Source of the DNA: Armatimonadota bacterium
GTDB taxonomy: Bacteria > Sysuimicrobiota > Sysuimicrobiia > Sysuimicrobiales > Sysuimicrobiaceae
Length of the DNA: 64,000 bases
Direction: 5' to 3'
Assembly (NCBI GenBank): GCA_025059775.1
Contig: JANXCW010000003.1
Coordinates: 144,284-208,283, forward strand
Below, in pieces: positions 28,133 to 42,374 of this stretch. The notes beneath the pieces are model-generated. The model saw only the letters and a list, made by a program, of their open reading frames with translations. It made no database searches and was not told the origin of the DNA. Within the stretch, counting starts at the first letter, position 1. Each line of letters starts with the position of its first letter. The position numbers were made by a program, and so were the translations under genes.

Positions 28133-28765
28133 TCAGGAGGTGGGTTCGGCCTCGTCGGATTTGCAGAGGAGGTCCACCAGGGCGACCAGTTGGTGCAGCC
28201 CGGGGTGGGAGCTGGCCTGGCGGACCCTGGTGGCCAGGGCGGGTAACCAGCTGCTCACGTGTTCCCGCAGGAAGGACCGCCGAGCCTGGCTGCACACCTC
28301 CGCGTCTTCTTCACGGCCTACGAGGCACGCGCACGCCTCCTGCGTGCACACGAAGGCCAAAAACTCCAGCTGAGCGGCCAGGTGGTCTGGACGGTCGCCG
28401 CGGGCCTCGAAGCCAAACGCCCGGTAGAACCCAGCGATGTCCGCAATCTGCTGCAGATTCGGCCCGCCCAGGGCAGGCGAGGCCTGGGCGGCGTAGCTGG
28501 CCGCGTACGGCGGGACCGAGCCGCGCTCGAAGACGCGTGCGTACTCCGTGCGGTAGGCCTCCGGGTCTTGTTCCACCTGCTCGAGGAAGGCGCGGAAGCG
28601 GGCTCGGCCCTCGGTGAGCTCCAGCTGTGCCAGGCTCCGGTCCAGCCACTCCACCGAGTCCCGCGGGACCGCGCCGCCGCTCCACGGTGCCAGCAGCCTC
28701 GCGCAGGCTCCGTATGCTACCGCCCTGGCCAGCAGGCGCCGGGGAGCTCCGCAATCTGTGCTCAC
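28133..28765 (-). CDS. TorD/DmsD-like molybdoenzyme chaperone (delta subunit)
   Basis: The start is GTG 28765, overlapping the preceding gamma-subunit stop. The 210-residue, all-helical protein carries the TorD-family pattern YRTEYARVFERGSVPPYAASYA followed by IAGFYRAFGFEARGDRPDHLAAQLEFLAFV, typical of chaperones that insert molybdenum cofactor and guard twin-arginine export of catalytic subunits. The gene is the last of an alpha-beta-gamma-delta set, the usual place for such a chaperone. No redox centre is expected. Confidence 0.85.
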   Translation of the reverse strand: MSTDCGAPRRLLARAVAYGACARLLAPWSGGAVPRDSVEWLDRSLAQLELTEGRARFRAFLEQVEQDPEAYRTEYARVFERGSVPPYAASYAAQASPALGGPNLQQIADIAGFYRAFGFEARGDRPDHLAAQLEFLAFVCTQEACACLVGREEDAEVCSQARRSFLREHVSSWLPALATRVRQASSHPGLHQLVALVDLLCKSDEAEPTS

Positions 28766-29664
28766 GGTTCCACCCGCAGCTGGCCCAGGAGGGTGATGGA
28801 CTTGCGGGCTCCCCGGTCGCCGTGGGCCCCCTGCCACACCCCGAAGGCCACCGCGTACGTGCCACCCGGACGGAGCGTGATCTCCTTGGGATCAGCGGCG
28901 CGAAGGGGCTTGCCGAGCACCACCCGCCACCGCCCCTCCTTCCAGGTACCTCGTCCCGCGGCGTTCTGGGTCGGTAGCTGTTCCAACGTCCCGGCTCCCT
29001 GCGCTACCAACTTCTCCACGGGGCTGGCCTTGCGGGGCTGGGAGAGGGGGTTGCCCACGTGCCACCCGGGCAGCCACCGGCGGGCTTCAGGGGGATAGGC
29101 GTCCGGGAGTTTCGGCGGGTGCTGCGCACCCACCAGAGGCGGGTAGAAGTCGAAGGCCACGTTGGGAAACGCCGTCTCGAGGTCCTGGAAGCCTGCGTCC
29201 ACGTCCAGCTGCCAGTCTGCGCGCCAGTGCAGCACCGTCGCCGGCGTCTTCGGCGTCCCCATCATCCACTCGGTGGCGCCCGCACCCGCGGGCAAGAGCA
29301 TGACCCCGCATCCGTCTTTGAACTCCCGGCTTTTGACCGTCCTCCGATCCGGACGGGGGTCCTGCCACTCCAGGAGGAACGCCACCCGTTGGCCGTCGTG
29401 GGCGGCGCGGACCCGCAACGAGGCCACGGACGGACGTATCTTGGTGGGCAGCGCCATGGCCTGGCCCACCAGACCGACCTCTGTGGGCGGCACGCTGCGC
29501 CAGACCTCCGCCTCGGGATCCACTGCCAGGGGTGCGGGGACACGCAGCGCCCGCAGGTCGGGCTGGGCGGAGGGCTGTGCCGGCGCCGAGGAGGGCAGGG
29601 CAACTGTGCCCAGAGCTGCGAGTCCGGCCAGGGCCTGACGTCGGGTGATCTTTTGGACCGCCAT
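28762..29664 (-). CDS. Gamma subunit of DMSO-reductase type II enzyme (heme b, NxrC/EbdC-like)
   Basis: A twin-arginine-like signal (KITRRQALAGLAALGTVAL) leads a 300-residue beta-rich protein. The region RAAHDGQRVAFLLEWQDPRPD and the later LPDAYPPEARRW resemble the heme-binding gamma subunits of ethylbenzene dehydrogenase, selenate and chlorate reductases and NxrC-type proteins. These are periplasmic and hold one heme b between Met and Lys or His. It lies directly after the iron-sulfur subunit and overlaps the chaperone gene. It would pass electrons between the beta subunit and a soluble or membrane carrier. Confidence 0.8.
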   Translation of the reverse strand: MAVQKITRRQALAGLAALGTVALPSSAPAQPSAQPDLRALRVPAPLAVDPEAEVWRSVPPTEVGLVGQAMALPTKIRPSVASLRVRAAHDGQRVAFLLEWQDPRPDRRTVKSREFKDGCGVMLLPAGAGATEWMMGTPKTPATVLHWRADWQLDVDAGFQDLETAFPNVAFDFYPPLVGAQHPPKLPDAYPPEARRWLPGWHVGNPLSQPRKASPVEKLVAQGAGTLEQLPTQNAAGRGTWKEGRWRVVLGKPLRAADPKEITLRPGGTYAVAFGVWQGAHGDRGARKSITLLGQLRVEP

Positions 29665-29673
29665 GGGAGCACC

Positions 29674-30813
29674 TCAGGTGACGTTGTACCGGTAGGCCCG
29701 GTGGTCCGGGTCGTAGGCGGGCCGGACCATGGTGGGCTCCTTGAGGGGTACGCGCACCACCTCCTCCCCGCGGTCGTCGTACCCATACACGAGCCCCCGG
29801 GCGACCCGGAAACGGTGCACGATCCGGTCCGTGGACACCGCCAGCAGGAGCACGCCCCGCAGCTCCTCATCCTTCCCCTCCATGGCCCGTCGGTAGGTGG
29901 CCGCGGCCTGCTCCACGCCGGGTCCGAAGAGCATCTGGAGGAACCGGAGGTTGCCCACGTGCACGGGCGGGATGTAGTACACGTTCGCCTCCAGACCCAG
30001 CTGCGGAAGTAGCGGCAGGGCCACCTTGCGCACGTGGACGAGGAAGTCCACGGGGTTGTCGGGGCGTGCCCGGTCTGGGGTGCTCACGAACCCGAAGGTC
30101 CGGATCTTCCCGATACAGGTACGCATGCAGCGGGGCTGGATCCCCCGTTCCACCGCGGGGAAGCAGAGCACGCACTTCTCCGACACCCGGGTGGTGTGGT
30201 TGTAGAAGACCTTCTTGAACGGGCACTCCTTCAGGCACTCACGGTACCCGCGGCACCGCTGCTGGTCCAGAAGCACGATGCCGTCCTCGGGCCGCTTGTA
30301 GATGGCCGTGCGGGGGCAGCTGGCCAGGCACGCAGGGTACGTGCAGTGGTTGCAGATGCGGGGTAGGTAGAAGAACCACAGGTCGTGGGGCAAGCGCAGG
30401 TAGAAACGCTCCTCCGTGAGGGGCGCGTTCGTCTCGTCCTCTCCCCGGTTCGGATACGCGTAGTCCAGGTCCTCGGGGAGGTAGCCCAGGGCGCGCTCGC
30501 CCGCTGGCGCCGCCTCGAAGACGGTCTTGCCCCGGTAGACGCCGCCCTCCCAGGTCTGCGGACCGAGCCTTTCCAGAATCCGCACGTCCCACGCCAGGGG
30601 GTAGGAGCCCCAGGGCTTGGTCTCCACGTTGTTCCAGAACATGTACTCCTGGCCCTTACCGGACGTCCACGTGGTCTTGCAGGCCATGGTGCAGGTCTGG
30701 CAGGCGATGCACTTGTTGGTGTCGAACACCGCCGCCGCCTGCCGACGGGGCCGTTGGCCCTCGAAGGGGTAGTCCATCTCCCGGCCGATCTGCCAGTTGT
30801 ACACCTTCGGCAT
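29674..30813 (-). CDS. nxrB: Iron-sulfur beta subunit of NXR/Nar-type enzyme (NxrB/NarH-like)
   Basis: ATG 30813 gives 379 residues starting MPKVYNWQIGREMDYPFEG, very like NxrB starts. Four Cys clusters are clear: CIACQTCTMACK; CNHCTYPACLASCPR; CRGYRECLKECPFKK; and CVLCFPAVERGIQPRCMRTC. They would hold three 4Fe-4S and one 3Fe-4S or fourth cluster; the CRGY site has Tyr where the third-position Cys is replaced (Trp in NarH). The tail NVYYIPPVHVGNLRFLQMLFGPG is the family C-terminal signature. It follows the alpha gene by two bases. It has no signal of its own, so it is probably exported with alpha. Confidence 0.9.
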   Translation of the reverse strand: MPKVYNWQIGREMDYPFEGQRPRRQAAAVFDTNKCIACQTCTMACKTTWTSGKGQEYMFWNNVETKPWGSYPLAWDVRILERLGPQTWEGGVYRGKTVFEAAPAGERALGYLPEDLDYAYPNRGEDETNAPLTEERFYLRLPHDLWFFYLPRICNHCTYPACLASCPRTAIYKRPEDGIVLLDQQRCRGYRECLKECPFKKVFYNHTTRVSEKCVLCFPAVERGIQPRCMRTCIGKIRTFGFVSTPDRARPDNPVDFLVHVRKVALPLLPQLGLEANVYYIPPVHVGNLRFLQMLFGPGVEQAAATYRRAMEGKDEELRGVLLLAVSTDRIVHRFRVARGLVYGYDDRGEEVVRVPLKEPTMVRPAYDPDHRAYRYNVT

Positions 30814-34482: not shown

Positions 34483-35586
34483 TCAGAGAAATCTCCGGCC
34501 TACGAGGAAAGTAGTTGCCCTCAGCCCTGCCCGGGCCCCCAGGTACAGGCCCAGGGCGTAGATCCAGCCGTCCACCCGGAGGGTGGCCACCGCGCTCCAG
34601 AAGCCGGAGACGTTGCAGCCGATGGCTACCCACACCGCCACGCCCATGCCCACCCCGCCCAGGAATCCCGTGAGCGCCTCCCGCATCCGCCACGCCCGGA
34701 ACCCCGCGAATTCCCCGGCCAGCAGGGCTCCGGTGAGGGCCCCCAGGATGAGGCCCACGTCCAGGTGGAATCCCGGATCGAGGGCCGGGATGCGCATCCC
34801 CCAGTACCGGGCCCACGGAAGGTCCCGGACCCCGGGATCCACGGTTCCGGCTGCCCACAGCACGAACCGCGCCAGGGGCAGCTGCACGCCCAGGGCGGAG
34901 TGGTACGCGAACTGGATCACGAAGAGGAGGGCAAACGCGGTCCCGCCCACCCATGCGGGCCAGGGGTGCTCGAAGACCCGTTCCAGGAAGGTTCCCGGGT
35001 TGGCGGCAGAAGGCACGGGGCTGGGCCGTGGCCCGAGGCGCAGGTACAGAACGCTCAGGGCGGCCAGGTTGAGGACAGTGGCAGGCCCCAGGCCGATGAG
35101 GTCCGGAAGGAAGATCCGCCACCCCTGATCCAGGAGCCGTTCCGTGAGGGGCCACGTATAGGCGGCACCGAGGCCGTTCCCTACGAGGATTCCCAGAAAA
35201 GCCGCGAGGCTCTTGGACTGTCCCGTGCCCAGGCGGTACAGGGTTCCCGTCATACATCCGCCTGCGAAGGGCATGGAGAACCCGAAGAGGGCAGATCCCA
35301 CCAGGGTGTGCAGGCCGAAGGGGATGCGGGGGGGACGATTCCACCCCAGTGCCATCACCAGCGCGGAGCCCGCGGACGCCACGGCCAGGCCCAGGAGGAT
35401 GCCCCGCAGGAGTTCCCGGTTTCCGTAGAAAGCGGAGGCAAAGCACAGCCTGGTACGCTGCAGCACGAAGCCGTAGCCCAGCCCCAGGAGGAGCAGCACC
35501 GCCGCGGCCTGCAGGCCCTGCGTCCAGGCCAGTCCCGCCGTGACCGCGGTTAGGGCCACCACCGCCGCGGCGGCACCCAGGTTCAT
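34483..35586 (-). CDS. YeeE/YedE-family sulfur-compound transporter (TsuA type)
   Basis: A polytopic membrane protein of 367 residues with about nine to ten helices. The two homologous halves carry the Cys motifs of the family: RTRLCFASAFYG, FAGGCMTGTLYRLG and AIGCNVSGFWSA. In TsuA these Cys line the path that relays thiosulfate through the membrane. ATG 35586 is chosen because the sequence before it is not hydrophobic. With TusA-like and sulfide-dehydrogenase genes upstream on the same strand it probably imports thiosulfate or a related sulfur species, or handles sulfane sulfur. Confidence 0.85.
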   Translation of the reverse strand: MNLGAAAAVVALTAVTAGLAWTQGLQAAAVLLLLGLGYGFVLQRTRLCFASAFYGNRELLRGILLGLAVASAGSALVMALGWNRPPRIPFGLHTLVGSALFGFSMPFAGGCMTGTLYRLGTGQSKSLAAFLGILVGNGLGAAYTWPLTERLLDQGWRIFLPDLIGLGPATVLNLAALSVLYLRLGPRPSPVPSAANPGTFLERVFEHPWPAWVGGTAFALLFVIQFAYHSALGVQLPLARFVLWAAGTVDPGVRDLPWARYWGMRIPALDPGFHLDVGLILGALTGALLAGEFAGFRAWRMREALTGFLGGVGMGVAVWVAIGCNVSGFWSAVATLRVDGWIYALGLYLGARAGLRATTFLVGRRFL

Positions 35587-35590
35587 CCGG

Positions 35591-36028
35591 TCACTCCTCC
35601 ACGATGAACTCCCCGTACATGGTGGCGTCGTGCCCCGGTACCGTGCACACATACCGGTACCGGCCCGGCCGATCCGGTACGAACCGGATCTCCTCCCGCT
35701 CCCCCGGGCCCAGCACCCGGGTCCTCGCGCCGGAGAAGACCGGCTCCAGATACGGGGCCCGCTCCCGCGGGCCCACCACCCAGAGGTCGTGCTGCAGGCT
35801 ATCCCGGTTCTCCAGCATCAGCCGCACCGGCCGTCCCACTCTGACCCGGAGAAGGGGGCCGGGGATGCGGCCTCCGAACCGCATCCCCGGATCTGCGGTC
35901 ACCACGAGAACCTGTTCCCCTACCGATGCGCGGCTCCGAACCTGGCAGCCCGTGAGGAGAGCCGCGAGGAGGATCACACAGGCGTTCCCGATCAGCCGTA
36001 GGCGGCCCGCAGGATCCCGTACTCCCAC
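35591..36028 (-). CDS. Cupredoxin lipoprotein
   Basis: GTG 36028 begins inside the end of the flavoprotein gene and yields a lipoprotein signal ending LLAALLTGC. The mature domain is a cupredoxin with a complete type 1 copper site: His in LQHDLWVV, then Cys, His and Met in YVCTVPGHDATMYGEF. About 100 mature residues form the beta sandwich. A membrane-anchored blue copper protein beside a sulfide dehydrogenase flavoprotein that lacks a cytochrome partner suggests it is that enzyme's electron acceptor, or a donor and acceptor for the molybdoenzyme (inference). GTG 35977 is an alternative start with an unusually short signal. Confidence 0.82.
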   Translation of the reverse strand: MGVRDPAGRLRLIGNACVILLAALLTGCQVRSRASVGEQVLVVTADPGMRFGGRIPGPLLRVRVGRPVRLMLENRDSLQHDLWVVGPRERAPYLEPVFSGARTRVLGPGEREEIRFVPDRPGRYRYVCTVPGHDATMYGEFIVEE

Positions 36029-37257
36029 CGTTTCCGATCCTCCACGTGCTTGGGGCTGGCGGGTGCGGTTCGGCTGCGAGCTCCCACGGGCCGTCCCTCC
36101 CGGTCCCACGCGGCCTCCACGAAGAGGGCCTCCCGGCGCGAGACGTACGGCCAGCACTGGTTGAACACAGGGTCGGGCTCTCCCCGGTCGCGGCCCAGGG
36201 CCCGGGCGATGGCGTAGGCGGCGTTGCGGCCCTGCAGGAAAGCCGTGAACGCGCTCTTGGTGTACGGGGAGGCGGCCACGTCGCCCATGGCGTACACGTT
36301 CTCGTGGCTGCGGCTGCGCCAGGTGGCGGGGTCGATGGGGATGAAGGGCGCTCCCAGCCCCGCCTCCTCCACAAAGAGCGGCGCCCGCTGGGACGGGATC
36401 ACGCTCGCGAGGTCGAACCGCTGCCGCTCGCCCCGGTCGGAGATCAGGGTTCGGGTGGCGGGGTCCAGCTCCACCACCTTGAAACTGGGCTTGTAGACGA
36501 TGCCCTTCTCGGAGAGCACCCGGCGCCACAGGTCCGCGAGGGCCGGCGGTTGGGGCCGGTCGCTGCTGTCGAGCACCACCACCTCCGCCCGGATCCCCTT
36601 GTTCCTCCAGTATTCCTGCACCAGGCACGCGATCTCGTAGGGGCCGGGTGGGCACTTGTAGGGCGGAGGAGGTACCGCGATGACGAACGTGCCGCCCCGG
36701 AACGCTTCCACGGCCCGGCGGAGCTCCAGGGTTCCCGCCCAGGTCCACGCATGCGGGCTCAGCCTGCGGTTCTCCAGGAGGTTGCGGATCTCGTCCTCCG
36801 CGGGCACCAGACCCGTGGCCACCGCGAGCACCGTGTACTCGATAAAGCCCTGGGGCGTGATCACCCGGTTGTCCCGCAGGCGCAGCCCTGTAACGGGTGC
36901 CCGGATGACCTGGATCCCGTCCCGCTGGAGCCCCTCGAAGGTCACCGTGACCTTTCGGGGATCCTCCAGTCCCACGATGTAGTCCACGTGGGAGGGCCCG
37001 GACACATAGCTGGGATTGCGCTCCAGCACCACCACCTCCACGTCCGGGGCCAGCTTGCGCAGGGTCCGGGCGCACATGGCGCCGCTGATTCCTGCCCCCA
37101 CGATCACCACCCGGCGGGTGGGGCGAGGGAGGATGGGCCGGCTGGGCTCCTGCGCCACGGCCCAGCCCAAGAACTCCTCCCCAAAGCTTCCCGTGGCCGC
37201 GGCCAGGGTGGCCCCACCCAGGACCTTGAGGACCTGCCTTCGCGTGAGCCGATCCAT
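35992..37257 (-). CDS. fccB: Sulfide dehydrogenase flavoprotein (FccB-like)
   Basis: The 421-residue protein has a twin-arginine signal (DRLTRRQVLKVLGGATLA) and an FAD-binding Rossmann fold (RRVVIVGAGISGAMCARTL). It matches the flavocytochrome c sulfide dehydrogenase flavoprotein: Cys in PPYKCPPGPYE and Cys in FNQCWPYVS are the pair that forms the redox disulfide over the flavin. The NVYAMGDVA segment binds FAD, and the C-terminal domain is of FccB type. No fccA cytochrome gene is adjacent; a cupredoxin overlaps its 3' end instead. Periplasmic oxidation of sulfide to sulfane sulfur is the likely reaction. Confidence 0.87.
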   Translation of the reverse strand: MDRLTRRQVLKVLGGATLAAATGSFGEEFLGWAVAQEPSRPILPRPTRRVVIVGAGISGAMCARTLRKLAPDVEVVVLERNPSYVSGPSHVDYIVGLEDPRKVTVTFEGLQRDGIQVIRAPVTGLRLRDNRVITPQGFIEYTVLAVATGLVPAEDEIRNLLENRRLSPHAWTWAGTLELRRAVEAFRGGTFVIAVPPPPYKCPPGPYEIACLVQEYWRNKGIRAEVVVLDSSDRPQPPALADLWRRVLSEKGIVYKPSFKVVELDPATRTLISDRGERQRFDLASVIPSQRAPLFVEEAGLGAPFIPIDPATWRSRSHENVYAMGDVAASPYTKSAFTAFLQGRNAAYAIARALGRDRGEPDPVFNQCWPYVSRREALFVEAAWDREGRPVGARSRTAPASPKHVEDRKRWEYGILRAAYG

Positions 37258-37268
37258 GCTTCACCCCC

Positions 37269-38054
37269 TTAGGTACACGTGGCGATGTAGTTCAGGACTT
37301 CGGGTGTGGCGATGACCTGATAGGAGAAGACAAGATCCTGCCCTTCCGCCACCAGGTATCGGTCCTCGTAGTCCGTGAGGTGCAGTTCCAAGGCAGTGCG
37401 GTCGGAGGAGGTCACCAGGCAGCTTTCGGGTCTGCACCGGCTCTCTAGGGAGGCCCGTCCGTCCCGCACCTCCAGGTAGTCCCGGGTCCTCAACACGCCC
37501 ACGGTTCCCTTCCCAGCACGCACCTCCACCCGGAGGATGGTGCCGGGCACGAGCTGGTAGACGGGAAGCAACAGCCGCGTGCCCCGTATCTGAACCGTGC
37601 CCTGGTTGCGCACAAGGTTCTGGCCCCTGCGCAATCGGGCCATGGACTCCTCGACGGTGCCGGGCTCGTACCGGAGGACGGTCTCCCCGGGCTGCAGGTG
37701 ACGGAGGCGTACATAGAACGTACTCCCCGAGTCGCTCGCGAGCGGGTAGCGGAGGGCTTTCATGTGGGTGAACACCCGGGCGGTGCGGGGGATCTGCCCA
37801 GATCGGAACTGCGCGAGCTCGTTCGCGTCTCCCGTGTGCTCGTAGATCACCACCTCCACGAGTCCCTGGGTGTGCACCTCCAGCACTGTGCGCTCCCCCG
37901 GTCGCACCACCCGCTCTTGCACGGTATCTTCCCGGAAGACCAGGGTCTGCGCCCGGGCCTCCCCCCCTGAACCCTCTCCCCCGGAGAGGAGCATCTGGGA
38001 CGCGAGGAACCCGTTGAGCAGCAGCGCCAGGAGAAAAGCGGGCCACCGCACCAT
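37269..38054 (-). CDS. Secreted protein of unknown function in the sulfur cluster
   Basis: I do not recognise this 261-residue protein. It has a signal peptide (residues about 1-37, MVRWPAFLLALLLNGFLASQ, then a Gly-rich stretch ending ARAQT). The mature part is rich in beta-strand-like sequence with no membrane helix. Cys residues occur in SRCRPESCLVTSS and near the end (IATCT). It stands 11 bases upstream of fccB and downstream of the TusA-like gene on the same strand, so a role in periplasmic sulfur chemistry or complex assembly is plausible only by context. Confidence 0.7.
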   Translation of the reverse strand: MVRWPAFLLALLLNGFLASQMLLSGGEGSGGEARAQTLVFREDTVQERVVRPGERTVLEVHTQGLVEVVIYEHTGDANELAQFRSGQIPRTARVFTHMKALRYPLASDSGSTFYVRLRHLQPGETVLRYEPGTVEESMARLRRGQNLVRNQGTVQIRGTRLLLPVYQLVPGTILRVEVRAGKGTVGVLRTRDYLEVRDGRASLESRCRPESCLVTSSDRTALELHLTDYEDRYLVAEGQDLVFSYQVIATPEVLNYIATCT

Positions 38055-38072: not shown

Positions 38073-38345
38073 TTAGCGCATCCGGCGGATCCGGAACCGG
38101 TAGATCCCGTCCTGCCTCCCCAGGGGCTCGACCTCGTGGCCTGCCAGGTGGGCCCAGTTCCGGAGGTCGGCTTCGGCCTGGGGATCCGTTGCGAGCACCT
38201 CCAGCACCTGCCCAACGTGAAGGCCGCGGAGAGCTTCCTGGGTCTTCAAAAGCGGCAGGGGGCACAGCAGCCCCCGACAGTCCAGGACCGCGTCCGCGGG
38301 CCTTTCCGCCTCGGGTGCGGCCTTTTCCGGGATGTCCGTGCGCAT
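38073..38345 (-). CDS. tusA: TusA/SirA-family sulfur carrier protein
   Basis: The 90-residue protein holds the family motif DCRGLLCPLPLLKTQEAL, in which the Cys of CPxP carries persulfide sulfur. The C-terminal strand pattern (GQVLEVLATDPQAEADLRNWA) is also typical. In sulfur oxidisers TusA-like proteins deliver sulfane sulfur in the cytoplasm. Being the first gene of a minus-strand run that includes a YeeE-type transporter and FccB, it probably receives imported sulfur (inference). The 17-residue acidic N-terminal extension is unusual. Confidence 0.9.
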   Translation of the reverse strand: MRTDIPEKAAPEAERPADAVLDCRGLLCPLPLLKTQEALRGLHVGQVLEVLATDPQAEADLRNWAHLAGHEVEPLGRQDGIYRFRIRRMR

Positions 38346-38548: not shown

Positions 38549-39718
38549 ATGGCGCCTGCGGACGTGGTCATCATCGGCGGCGGGTGCATGGGAGCCAGCG
38601 TGGCCTTCCACCTGGCACGTCGCCTGCAGGGCAAGGTCCTTCTCCTCGAGCGGGACCGGGTAGGGATGGGGCCCACCGGCCGCACGGTGGGGATCATCCG
38701 GCTGCACTACTCCCACGAACCCCTCATCGCGCTTGCCCTGCGCAGCCTGGACGCGTTTGCACACTTCGGGATCCTCACGGGTCGCAGCGCGGACTTCACC
38801 CGCACGGGATTTTTGCTGCTGGTTCCGGAGGGGGAGTGGGAGGGGCTACTGGCCAACGTAGCGTTGCAGCGACGCCTGGGAGCCCGGGTGGAGCTCCTCA
38901 CCGCGGAGGAAGTGGTCCGGATGGACCCCAGGCTGAGCCCGGAGGGGATCGCGGGCGGAGCGTACGAGCCGGAGAGCGGGTTCGCGGACGGATACGCAAC
39001 CGCGACGGGCTTTGCGGCCGCAGCCCGGGAACGGGGCGTGGAGATCGAAGAGGGGGTCCGGGCGGAATCCCTCGAGGTGCGGAACGGAAGGATCGTGGGC
39101 GTGCAGACCTCCCGGGGAGCGGTGGGCACCGAAAGGGTTCTCGTGGCCGCGGGGCCATGGAGCGTGGATCTCCTGCGGCCCCTCGGCATCGAGCTCCCCA
39201 TCGTGGCGGCCCGGGAGCAGGTGGTGCACCTGGCACCTCCCCAGGCCTTCGGGCCTCTGCGGGTGGTCCTGGAGGACCTCGCCCTGGGCTTTTATGCGCG
39301 GCCTGAGACCGGAGGGACGGTGTTGGCGGGGGTGCTGGAGGAGGAGCCGGAGGAGATCGTGAACCCCGACGGATTTCACCCAGGCGTGGACTTGCACTTC
39401 GTGGAGCGGGTAGCTCGGGTGTGGAGCGCACGCTTTCCGCAAGCCCGGGAATCCCATTTCCTGGGGGGATATGCCAGCCTGTACGATGTCACCCCCGATT
39501 GGCAGCCCATCCTGGGCCCGGTGGAGGGAATCGAGGGGCTTTACCTGGCCGCGGGTTTTAGCGGGCACGGGTTTAAGCTCAGCCCAGCGCTTGGCGAGGA
39601 GCTGAGCCGGTGGTTGGTGGGGGAAGAGCCCACCGTGGACCTCGCAGCTTTCTCCCTCCGCCGGTTCCGGGAGGGGAAGCTCCTGCGGGGAAGACACCGG
39701 AAGGGGCTTCTCGGGTAG
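38549..39718 (+). CDS. FAD-dependent amine/amino-acid oxidoreductase (DAO family, sarcosine-oxidase-beta-like)
   Basis: The 389-residue protein begins with the dinucleotide-binding motif DVVIIGGGCMGASVAFHLAR and has the DAO-family features: VGMGPTGRTVGIIRLHYS near the flavin, a central AGPWSVDLLRPLG segment and a C-terminal GLYLAAGFSGHGFKLSPALG loop. It is closest in pattern to sarcosine oxidase beta and dimethylglycine dehydrogenase-like enzymes that oxidise secondary amines. No partner subunit is nearby, so the substrate is open. Its stop lies three bases from the stop of the convergent oxidase-like gene. Confidence 0.85.
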   Translation: MAPADVVIIGGGCMGASVAFHLARRLQGKVLLLERDRVGMGPTGRTVGIIRLHYSHEPLIALALRSLDAFAHFGILTGRSADFTRTGFLLLVPEGEWEGLLANVALQRRLGARVELLTAEEVVRMDPRLSPEGIAGGAYEPESGFADGYATATGFAAAARERGVEIEEGVRAESLEVRNGRIVGVQTSRGAVGTERVLVAAGPWSVDLLRPLGIELPIVAAREQVVHLAPPQAFGPLRVVLEDLALGFYARPETGGTVLAGVLEEEPEEIVNPDGFHPGVDLHFVERVARVWSARFPQARESHFLGGYASLYDVTPDWQPILGPVEGIEGLYLAAGFSGHGFKLSPALGEELSRWLVGEEPTVDLAAFSLRRFREGKLLRGRHRKGLLG

Positions 39719-39720
39719 GC

Positions 39721-41014
39721 CTATGGTTCCTGCAGGAGGATCGGGGTCGGGGCGGGTGAGCCCACCCCACCCCGCAGGGACCGCCAGGCCGAGATCAGGA
39801 ACCATCCGCCCCCGCAGGCGGCGAGCACACCGGAGATGGCCAGGAGGGTGAGGGGAAGGGTCCACGGGTGCGGGCCCGACAGGTAGGCCTTGCGGGGCAT
39901 CCCGGATCCCGCGGCCACCAGCAGCGCGGCCACCGTGAGTACGGCTCCGCTTCCGAAAAGGTGCAGCTGAGCCCTGCCTGCGCGCGGCAGGACCTCGCAC
40001 CCGTTTTCCTCCAGAATCCGGTACACCATGCCCACGAAGGCGGTGGTGACCCCGCCTACCAGCATGGCATGGTAGTGGGCGGTGATCCGGAGGGTCTGGG
40101 CAGCACCGATCGGTGCGAGGATCCCGCCCAGCAGGTACAGCCCCACGGACCACTCCAAGGCCGACCGCTCAAGAAGGCCACCGGGCCGCGGGGGGAGCGC
40201 TGCGGATACGCTGTACAAGCACCCAAAGGTGCACCAGGGTGGGGACACTCAGGCCAAGGCCCAAAGCCGCGTTTTTCAGGCTCCAATCCGGCATGCCGGA
40301 TGGGTCGGGTGCCAAGTACAGCAGGGAGGGGAGAAAGGCGAGGAGGCCGGAGAGGGCGTAGGCGGTGCGCACCGGGGATCTGTGCGTAGGCGCGATCCTC
40401 CATCCGGCCTCTGCCAGGGCATGCCAGGCGAGGGCCAGGGCCGTCACGTACACGAACTGCAAGGCGTGCCCCGCTCCCCACAGGGCCGCCTGCGGGTGGT
40501 CCCCTCCCACTCTCAGAAGACCTACTACGGCCCCCAAGAGCGTGGCCCCATACGCCAGGGCCAGGCATCTGGCACCCCATCGGGGAGTCTCCGGGCACGC
40601 CGCCCGTGCAAGCGGCGCAAGCGCCAGGAGGACTCCGAAGGCCAGGAAGAGGTATCCCGCCCAATACAGGGGGGAAGCCACGAACGGCAGGTAGTCCACC
40701 ACCACGGGCCGACCGGGGAGCGCAAGTCCCGCGAGCAGGCACCCGAAGCCCAGGGCGGCCAGACGCAGACCCGATGTGGGCGGTCGGAGGCACGACAGAT
40801 GGAGGGCCACCGCGGTGCTGCACCCCAGCAGCCACACCACCAGGGAGAAGGTGACGTGCCCCACCAGGGTCTTGTAGAAGGCCTCAGGAGGAATCCCGTG
40901 TGCAAACAGCGGTAGCCTTCCTCCGGTGATGAGAACGGCCAGCACGCCCGCCGTGGCCGCGGCGGCAAGACTGAGCCTCACCCACTCCACCACGCCGCGG
41001 CCGTTGGCATCCAT
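39721..41014 (-). pseudogene. Heme-copper-oxidase-like subunit I, one frameshift
   Basis: Two frames join near 40190-40200, beside a run of six G, to give one membrane protein of about 430 residues from ATG 41014. Histidines expected of the superfamily are present: YKTLVGHVTFSLVVWLLG (low-spin heme, helix II), WGAGHALQFVYVTALALAW (copper site, helix VI) and RITAHYHAMLVGGVTTAF (helix X heme pair). The HPEVY motif and the double His of canonical oxidases are absent (VPTLVHLWV has one). It may be an atypical NO reductase-like or oxidase-like protein. The homopolymer break could be a sequencing error. Confidence 0.6.
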
Positions 41015-41021
41015 GCGTCCC

Positions 41022-42374
41022 TCAGTGCCCGATGGGCCACGAGCGGGACAGGTTCCAGTAGTTGCCCAGGTACATGAAGACGAAGAAAGCCGCGAACAGC
41101 AGACACAGGACGAAGGTGCCGGGGACCGCGGGAACTTCCCTTGCCCCGTGTCCTGGGTTGCCGCCGAGCGGCAGCGCGTACTGCCGGCGCAGTTCGTCGT
41201 CGGTAAGCCGCTTTCCGAGCAGGACCGTGGCCACCACCAGGACCACGAACGGGGCACCGCCCAGCAGGGCCAGTATCCCCCCGACCCCGGCCACCGCCAG
41301 GAGTCGGTAGACCTCGTCCGGCCATGCGAAGGCCAAGGGCAACCCCCGGAACCGGAAGATGTCCGGCTGCTTGCGGGGAAGTCCGTACCGGACGCCCAGC
41401 TGCAGGTAGGCCAGAACCAGGAGGCCGACGCCGACCCCGAACAGCCACGGCTGCCACCGGGCCCAACGCTCCCCCACCACACGGCGGTTGATCCACTTCC
41501 ACCCCACGGACAGCGCCCCGCTGGGCTCTGTTTGCAGGTGGTGGGCGCTCCCCAGGTTGATGGCGACCAGGTACAGGACGAAAGCCGCGCGAGACACCTT
41601 CTCGCTCGGCGTGCGGCCGCCCACGGTGAGCTGCGCCAGCAGGTACCACACCGCTACCGTGGCAGCCAGGTTGATTTGCTGGGACGGATGGGCAAAACCC
41701 CAGTACACCAGCTTCCAGAGGAATGGATCCAGGTGCGCCAGCAGCCCCGCGGACCACGGCAAGGCAGGTACGAAGACCAGCGCGCCCACCAGCAGGGTGG
41801 CCACCGCCAGCACCGCGCCCACGGTATCCGCCACGCTCACGTCCTCGCACCCCATCTCCAGCAACTCCAGGGCGATCCTCCGGACGGTCCGCGGATCCGC
41901 CCGGCCGCTGTAGGGGCACCACCACGCCACGCTGATGTAGCCGCGCACCGACATCCCTTCTCGGTGCGCTTCCCGTACCACCTCCCGGAAGGTCCGCAAA
42001 GACGCCTCCACCGTCATCCCCAGATTGGCCTGGGCGAAGGCGTCCGTGGCCGCGGTGAACACCGCAATGGTCCGGACCCCGCAGGCGACGGCCCGTTGCA
42101 ATCCCCGCAGGTTTGGAACCAGCGCGATGTGGTGGACTCCTTCCCGCGGCCGCAGGCGGTGCACCACCTCCTCCGTGTCCGCCATCTGAGGTACCCGATC
42201 TGGCCGCACGAACGACCCCACCTCGATCCACCGCAGCCCTGCCTCCGCCAGGGCCTCGATGAAGGCCACCTTGACGTCCGTGGGGAGGATCTCGGGCTCG
42301 TTCTGGAGGCCGTCCCGGGGGCCCACCTCCACCACCCGGACGGTAGAGGGAAGGGAATCGAGGGGAACGGTCAT
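41022..42374 (-). CDS. Chimeric frame: N-terminal HMG-CoA lyase joined to partial B-type heme-copper oxidase
   Basis: One open frame of 450 residues holds two unrelated pieces. Residues 1 to about 187 are HMG-CoA lyase (VEVGPRDGLQNEPEILPT; IEVGSFVRPDRVPQMADTEE), the last leucine-degradation enzyme, cut at SVADTVG before its catalytic His and Cys loops. From about 188 the sequence is a heme-copper oxidase: helix VI with YWGFAHPSQQINLA and helix VII with NLGSAHHLQTEPSG. Helices I-IV are missing, and near residue 295 the sequence jumps to the end region (GERWARWQPWLFG, YGLPRKQPD), losing the helix X heme ligands. Neither part can be an active enzyme as it stands. A deletion junction or an assembly misjoin near 41813 must be involved. 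Confidence 0.7.
   Translation of the reverse strand: MTVPLDSLPSTVRVVEVGPRDGLQNEPEILPTDVKVAFIEALAEAGLRWIEVGSFVRPDRVPQMADTEEVVHRLRPREGVHHIALVPNLRGLQRAVACGVRTIAVFTAATDAFAQANLGMTVEASLRTFREVVREAHREGMSVRGYISVAWWCPYSGRADPRTVRRIALELLEMGCEDVSVADTVGAVLAVATLLVGALVFVPALPWSAGLLAHLDPFLWKLVYWGFAHPSQQINLAATVAVWYLLAQLTVGGRTPSEKVSRAAFVLYLVAINLGSAHHLQTEPSGALSVGWKWINRRVVGERWARWQPWLFGVGVGLLVLAYLQLGVRYGLPRKQPDIFRFRGLPLAFAWPDEVYRLLAVAGVGGILALLGGAPFVVLVVATVLLGKRLTDDELRRQYALPLGGNPGHGAREVPAVPGTFVLCLLFAAFFVFMYLGNYWNLSRSWPIGH

Follow-up and report, generated by a model that had tools for sequence, protein, structure and literature searches.

The closest described counterpart of the locus analysed here is the sulfide dehydrogenase FccAB (FCSD; structures 1fcd, 3vrd and 5n1t), in which the flavoprotein FccB works with the cytochrome FccA; we take Cys161 and Cys337 of 1fcd to be the two redox-active cysteines and Cys42 of FCSD to be the cysteine for covalent FAD. 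The flavoprotein of our locus has the protein family, the PF21706 domain, the two redox cysteines and export in common with FccAB, but it is without the FAD-tethering Cys42, a detectable C-terminal domain PF09242 and FccA, and a cupredoxin is encoded beside it. Copper genes have been described next to fccAB in the thiocyanate clusters of Thioalkalivibrio, where copCD is the neighbor and the copper genes are tied to thiocyanate dehydrogenase in the excerpted report (PMC5328954). Those clusters resemble our locus in having FCSD near copper-protein genes, but fccA is present there. The FCSD of 5n1t is of this thiocyanate-cluster kind, and the structure is presumably a complex with CopC, which to our knowledge is not a type-1 copper carrier. 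None of the titles and abstracts listed for cupredoxin together with flavocytochrome c or sulfide oxidation described an FCSD-cupredoxin pair.

The other described counterpart is the nitrite oxidoreductase (NXR) cluster. In the excerpted account of the NXR clusters of Nitrospina, Nitrospira and Kuenenia, two cupredoxin-like proteins are among the conserved genes, and copper carriers to the oxidase or the bc complex are proposed (Lucker et al. 2013, PMC3578206). As excerpted, these clusters combine NxrABC, a chaperone and nearby cupredoxin-like proteins, as our locus does; unlike it, they include c-type cytochromes and, within the same excerpts, no TusA/YeeE/FCSD module. NXR-like genes and sqr have been reported in the phylum Sysuimicrobiota (CSP1-3), for one class and one order, in the partial text of PMC11604079.

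The window, that is, the whole 64-kb stretch of DNA that was analysed, contains on one strand, and in one apparent operon, tusA, a gene for a 261-residue protein (hyp261), the flavoprotein and cupredoxin genes, yeeE, genes for NxrA-, NxrB- and NxrC-like subunits and a chaperone gene (Table 1). While the observation made in the sequence-only reading was confirmed, the surrounding TusA, YeeE and NXR genes went unmentioned there. The order from TusA to YeeE is kept in four genomes, namely, the window genome (G000), its genus mate G036 (locus L033), G038 and G039, and the NXR genes follow YeeE in three of the four, the contig of G038 stopping inside yeeE. A tusA gene occupies the equivalent position in G036, G038, G039 and G040. 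In G040, one contig stops in hyp261 after tusA and another starts in yeeE before nxrA, so that a flavoprotein and a cupredoxin gene would fall in the gap.

Table 1. Features of the locus, with positions in the window
Feature	Position	Strand	Support
TusA-family sulfurtransferase, first gene of the sulfur module	38073..38345	-	PF01206 E=8.7e-23
hyp261, 261 aa, membrane-anchored, candidate sulfur carrier	37269..38054	-	two tandem beta-sandwich domains, penultimate Cys
FCSD-type flavoprotein (FccB-like), 421 aa, apparent Tat signal	35992..37257	-	PF21706 E=1.6e-19
Small auracyanin-like cupredoxin, exported, type-1 copper site, 145 aa	35591..36028	-	PF00127 over cut-off
YeeE/YedE-family sulfur transporter	34483..35586	-	PF04143 E=6.9e-42
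NxrA-like molybdoenzyme catalytic subunit, 1180 aa	30816..34358	-	full-length match to 7b04
NxrB-like iron-sulfur subunit	29674..30813	-	TIGR03478 E=7.1e-77, below its cut-off
NxrC-like heme b subunit	28762..29664	-	PF09459 EB_dh E=2e-27; TIGR03477 below cut-off
Molybdoenzyme assembly chaperone	28133..28654	-	PF02613 E=6.1e-19
Chimeric ORF: HMG-CoA-lyase-like gene start and terminal oxidase subunit I remnants	41022..42374	-	

The flavoprotein begins with an apparent twin-arginine signal, and its FCSD_central domain (PF21706) scored 70.6 bits against a cut-off of 27. The solved FCSD flavin subunits matched it at E values of 1e-36 to 1e-38. Its residues C202 and C368 align with Cys161 and Cys337 of 1fcd, respectively, and both are conserved in the clade; loss of the second redox cysteine was considered and ruled out, since the Cys337 equivalent is the conserved cysteine of the NTCYS motif and not that of GWCPVD. 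At the position of the FAD tether, all six clade members (G000, G036, G038, G039, G017 and G005) have glycine instead of cysteine (Gly87 in the window protein), and PF09242 gave no match in the window flavoprotein (E 0.1) or in those of G036 and G017 (0.01). Its last 54 residues could be aligned with the C-terminal region of FCSD (hhalign 93.6%), and this homology by profile comparison indicated that the flavoprotein has diverged in this region rather than had it replaced. Since the six clade members form one lineage, the loss of the tether cysteine and of PF09242 may be a single event. Thus, the label FccB given in the sequence-only reading stands as to the FCSD family, PF21706 and both redox cysteines, whereas the tether cysteine, PF09242 and an adjacent FccA are all missing; the label is too strong and is better relaxed to FCSD-type flavoprotein, with sulfide as its probable substrate by homology.

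That the flavoprotein is a sulfide:quinone reductase (SQR), or another disulfide-active flavoprotein in need of neither cytochrome nor cupredoxin, appears improbable. Its best NCBIfam match was indeed SQR_III_seleno (NF049943, E=6.8e-38), yet the 130.6 bits obtained are far under the cut-off of 525, and, while the clade formed a long branch adjoining SQR-like sequences from the phylum in a FastTree phylogeny, SQR structures matched the protein only at E values of about 1e-11, compared with about 1e-37 for the FCSD flavin subunits, its nearest solved relatives. The aligned FCSD-type C terminus and the apparent Tat signal also argue against an SQR, whereas the frequency of cytochrome-less FCSD-like proteins in Proteobacteria, described below, is in line with one.

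The sequence-only reading had stated that no c-type cytochrome is adjacent to the flavoprotein gene, and this was borne out: no gene called in the 64-kb window carried a CxxCH motif, and the motif was likewise absent within 3 kb of the flavoprotein gene in loci L033 to L037. An FccA-like cytochrome encoded elsewhere and co-inherited with the flavoprotein, which the same reading had named as counterevidence, was searched for genome-wide with Pfam PF13442, at a threshold that a true FccA (that of L100) passes, and none was seen. The four PF13442 matches in the window genome all lie in the diheme cytochrome of the bc complex and in cbb3-type oxidase subunits, and the two in G017 fall in one open frame. 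In G036, a single further monoheme cytochrome is encoded next to a SoxC-like gene, and in G038, two small ones are encoded next to genes that we take to be copper-handling-like. An organism devoid of c-type cytochromes was ruled out, given the cytochrome assembly genes and PF13442 proteins present.

A wider genome scan reached 2 close relatives (L090 and L091, apparently the G038 and G039 contigs) and 25 distant loci. A clear FccA was encoded within 3 kb in only 1 of the 25 loci (L100), as judged by a six-frame scan for CxxCH over 3 kb around the gene, in which motif-bearing ORFs of L102 (antisense) and L107 (111 aa) were not counted as FccA, several loci had less than 3 kb on one side, and two (L115 and L116) were weak matches, left out of the homologue alignment and tree. 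With an adjacent FccA in so few homologues, the lack of an adjacent CxxCH is weak evidence on its own. Outside the phylum, four of eight further homologues have an adjacent diheme cytochrome. All five FccA-adjacent controls (L100, L212, L214, L215 and L216) possess both the FAD-tether cysteine and PF09242; the canonical L100 protein and those of L211 to L217 (the gene calls of L217 may include antisense genes) carry this domain, and that of L218 does not.

Cytochrome-less FCSD-like proteins are a common kind. Those of L098, L099, L107 and the second copy in L100, from Proteobacteria, are encoded next to soxY and soxZ and near YeeE, and they resemble the window flavoprotein in having sulfur-carrier and transporter neighbors and no cytochrome; PF09242 is absent from the two tested (L098 and L100), and three are also without Cys42. 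They differ from our locus in that the carrier genes are soxYZ rather than hyp261 and in that no cupredoxin of the window kind was detected beside them. As some FCSD-like proteins have no FccA and no cupredoxin detected beside them, the lost domain alone does not imply a copper partner. What is new at our locus is the dedicated cupredoxin, together with hyp261 and NXR. The module of L212 consists of a TusA-containing fusion, YeeE, FccB with a diheme FccA directly 3′ of it, a two-subunit molybdoenzyme, soxY and soxZ; it looks like a cytochrome version of the same plan, with the cupredoxin of our locus where FccA is.

As a separate observation, an FCSD-like gene lies within 1.5 kb of selA in 13 of the 25 distant loci (L093 to L097, L101 to L105, L111, L113 and L114), mostly labelled Azonexus, Dechloromonas and other Proteobacteria, and fdh- and selB-like genes occur in L101. 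This neighborhood possibly links the FCSD-like gene to selenium or formate dehydrogenase.

The cupredoxin gene starts at a GTG inside the 3′ end of the flavoprotein gene, and the ORF coordinates reproduce the 37-base overlap (36028 to 35992) that had been noted before. The same overlap occurs only in G036; it is 4 bases in G039, and there is a gap in G038. Likewise, the complete His-Cys-His-Met copper site claimed for this protein was recovered, as H80, C128, H133 and M137 (C-x4-H-x3-M), invariant in all four cupredoxin orthologues. Pfam Copper-bind (PF00127) scored 24.4 bits against a cut-off of 21.2, and the copper-motif regular expression matched twice in the window, whereas 1 of 30 trinucleotide-shuffled windows had any match (ORFs of at least 100 aa). 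The assignment as a lipoprotein is sound for the window copy, which has a clear lipobox (LLTGC), but not for the orthologues, of which G036 has a weaker FVGC and G038 and G039 have no cysteine in that segment. Between G000 and G036, dN/dS was 0.13 for the flavoprotein and 0.47 for the cupredoxin; both are under purifying selection, and the cupredoxin evolves faster.

The top Foldseek matches of the cupredoxin included the auracyanins 6kol, 1qhq and 2aan, amid laccase domains, and auracyanin was its best single-domain structural match. In Chloroflexi, auracyanin works in the photosynthetic or respiratory chain, and we know of no link between it and FCSD. The full type-1 site and the likeness to auracyanin point to a role in electron transfer rather than in copper delivery. 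A CuA-type subunit II gene does lie upstream in G036, G038 and G039, as might be expected of a protein delivering copper to a CuA oxidase or another copper enzyme; given the site, the auracyanin similarity and, in the window genome, an intact cupredoxin gene alongside degraded oxidase genes, such a function is highly improbable.

Co-occurrence was assessed in 43 genomes of one phylum and 386 relatives, with the flavoprotein clade counted at at least 60% identity over the best piece. Among the 43 genomes, the flavoprotein clade was found in 6, NXR in 9 (one of them, G035, decayed) and both in 5, the sixth flavoprotein genome, G038, being cut at a contig end. A Fisher test of flavoprotein against NXR (5/6 versus 4/37) gave p=7e-4 with shared ancestry ignored. 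A close cupredoxin was present in 4 of the 43. The sequence-only reading had called for co-occurrence of FccB and the cupredoxin in related genomes, and this holds for all four genomes with an intact locus but not for G017 and G005, whose flavoproteins, the G005 copy being frameshifted, are found without an orthologue of the window cupredoxin (best matches, 3e-6 and 3e-4). These two genomes weaken the case for an obligatory flavoprotein-cupredoxin pair. In both, no CxxCH lies within 3 kb of the flavoprotein gene, and the NXR loci are located elsewhere and are of another type.

The NxrA-like subunit matched nitrite oxidoreductase subunit A (7b04) over residues 24 to 1175 (E=9e-280). As to class, it is NxrA-type with NxrB and NxrC partners present, the NCBIfam type II cut-offs being unreached; the enzyme is of the NXR type within the type II DMSO reductase family and may work as a nitrate reductase. 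The window NxrA grouped with a separate set at 53 to 59% identity, distinct from a group at 40 to 46%. The 53 to 59% group includes 15 genomes outside the phylum (L125 to L139), several with the gene beside multiheme cytochromes. Upstream of the sulfur module, intact terminal oxidase subunits CoxB and CoxA are encoded in G036, G038 and G039 (L033 to L035), while the window genome retains only residues 182 to 295 and 410 to 564 of CoxA, and CoxB was not seen there. The loss, visible in the chimeric ORF, in which an HMG-CoA-lyase-like start is fused to the CoxA remnants, is either a deletion or a misassembly.

Because published NXR clusters include cupredoxins (PMC3578206, as excerpted), the window cupredoxin may serve NXR or the oxidase. 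It could link the NXR-like enzyme to the upstream oxidase as their carrier, passing electrons from the heme b of NxrC to CuA, with the flavoprotein co-transcribed but using another acceptor. NxrABC in the same operon, the CuA-type oxidase upstream in relatives, the two cupredoxin-like proteins conserved in the NXR clusters of the excerpted account (Lucker et al. 2013, PMC3578206) and the presence in G017 and G005 of NXR and the flavoprotein but not of the cupredoxin are in keeping with this role. Nevertheless, no cupredoxin match was present among the genes called around NXR in G017, G005, G001 and G004, and among 20 NXR neighborhoods outside the phylum, there was a single match to the window cupredoxin, in a 494-aa protein. 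Its near absence from these NXR loci argues against the cupredoxin as a standard NXR part. Moreover, cupredoxin and NXR are intact in the window genome, whereas its oxidase is degraded. Taken with these data, a carrier role confined to NXR and the oxidase is possible but somewhat unlikely.

The hyp261 protein had no Pfam or NCBIfam match. Its model (pLDDT 86) comprises a helix at residues 4 to 23 (membrane) and two beta-sandwich domains, and the gene was found in 6 of the 386 genomes, always in the same gene order. The penultimate cysteine is conserved (CT in the alignment; CQ in G017, as read from the DNA). A SoxYZ homologue was ruled out on sequence, since comparison with SoxY and SoxZ yielded hhalign values of 5.3% and 0.1% and no Pfam match; the best hit of the structure search (Z 6.0) was among unrelated jelly-roll-like chains, with no Sox protein among the matches listed, and the C-terminal end differs from the GGCGG-type end of the L100 SoxY. 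Thus, hyp261 may stand for SoxYZ as a candidate sulfur carrier, an assignment drawn from its position and its penultimate cysteine, given that it has no sequence relation to SoxY or SoxZ.

In G040, a second copy of hyp261 (L220, 480-8496) is preceded by a two-subunit molybdoenzyme similar to that of L212, two genes of the GcvH type and a lipoate ligase gene, which suggests a wider role in sulfur oxidation. The GcvH-like and lipoate ligase genes resemble those of the sHdr sulfur pathway, which carries such genes according to the partial text of PMC12423496. The same partial text describes YeeE-type transporters (SoxT) as importers of sulfane sulfur (PMC12423496).

Our best, though tentative, reading of the locus is a periplasmic sulfur-oxidation module together with an NXR-type enzyme, in which the flavoprotein donates electrons to the cupredoxin. 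Judging from homology, the flavoprotein would oxidize sulfide, or sulfane sulfur on the candidate carrier hyp261, by means of C202, C368 and FAD. Lacking both the FAD-tether cysteine and a recognizable C-terminal domain typical of cytochrome-partnered FccB, it would transfer single electrons to the auracyanin-like cupredoxin and not to FccA, and the cupredoxin would pass them to a terminal oxidase. From the known roles of YeeE and TusA, the former would take in carrier sulfur, which the latter would receive. As a shared carrier, the cupredoxin may in addition pass electrons to or from NXR. With respect to the proposal in the sequence-only reading that the cupredoxin stands in place of FccA, the missing cytochrome partner, the adjacency conserved in all four genomes and the loss of the tether cysteine and PF09242 speak for it, but the pairing is not obligatory. 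The arrangement is real and conserved, and a copper partner is plausible on the genomic data; these features suggest that copper may have replaced heme in this electron route, although adjacency does not prove electron transfer from flavoprotein to cupredoxin.

A broader reading, which we consider doubtful, is that the operon as a whole encodes a copper-based variant of sulfide dehydrogenase, its flavoprotein having neither cytochrome nor covalent FAD, with a dedicated cupredoxin, the lineage-specific, two-domain hyp261 for SoxYZ and a carrier shared with the co-transcribed NXR, thereby combining sulfur and nitrite lithotrophy. Should this hold, a blue-copper protein could take the place of the heme partner in a classic sulfur-oxidation enzyme, a swap that would account for some cytochrome-less homologues of FCSD. 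One small copper carrier would then tie sulfide oxidation to nitrite oxidation in a lineage that is largely uncultured, and hyp261 would represent a new family of sulfur carriers.

Several further observations concern the surroundings of the locus. In G036, a SoxC-like sulfite dehydrogenase and a monoheme cytochrome are encoded about 4 kb past NXR (L087, 5469-7302); none was called in the window. In G035, nxrA has decayed to fragments with stops, and nxrB is largely readable (L086, 8737-11664). The window ORFs at 39721-40218 and 40169-41014 correspond to one 431-aa gene of relatives, apparently split by a frameshift, and a frameshift in G036 (L033, 11217-12382) interrupts the divergent FAD oxidase gene that neighbors tusA (window 38549-39718).
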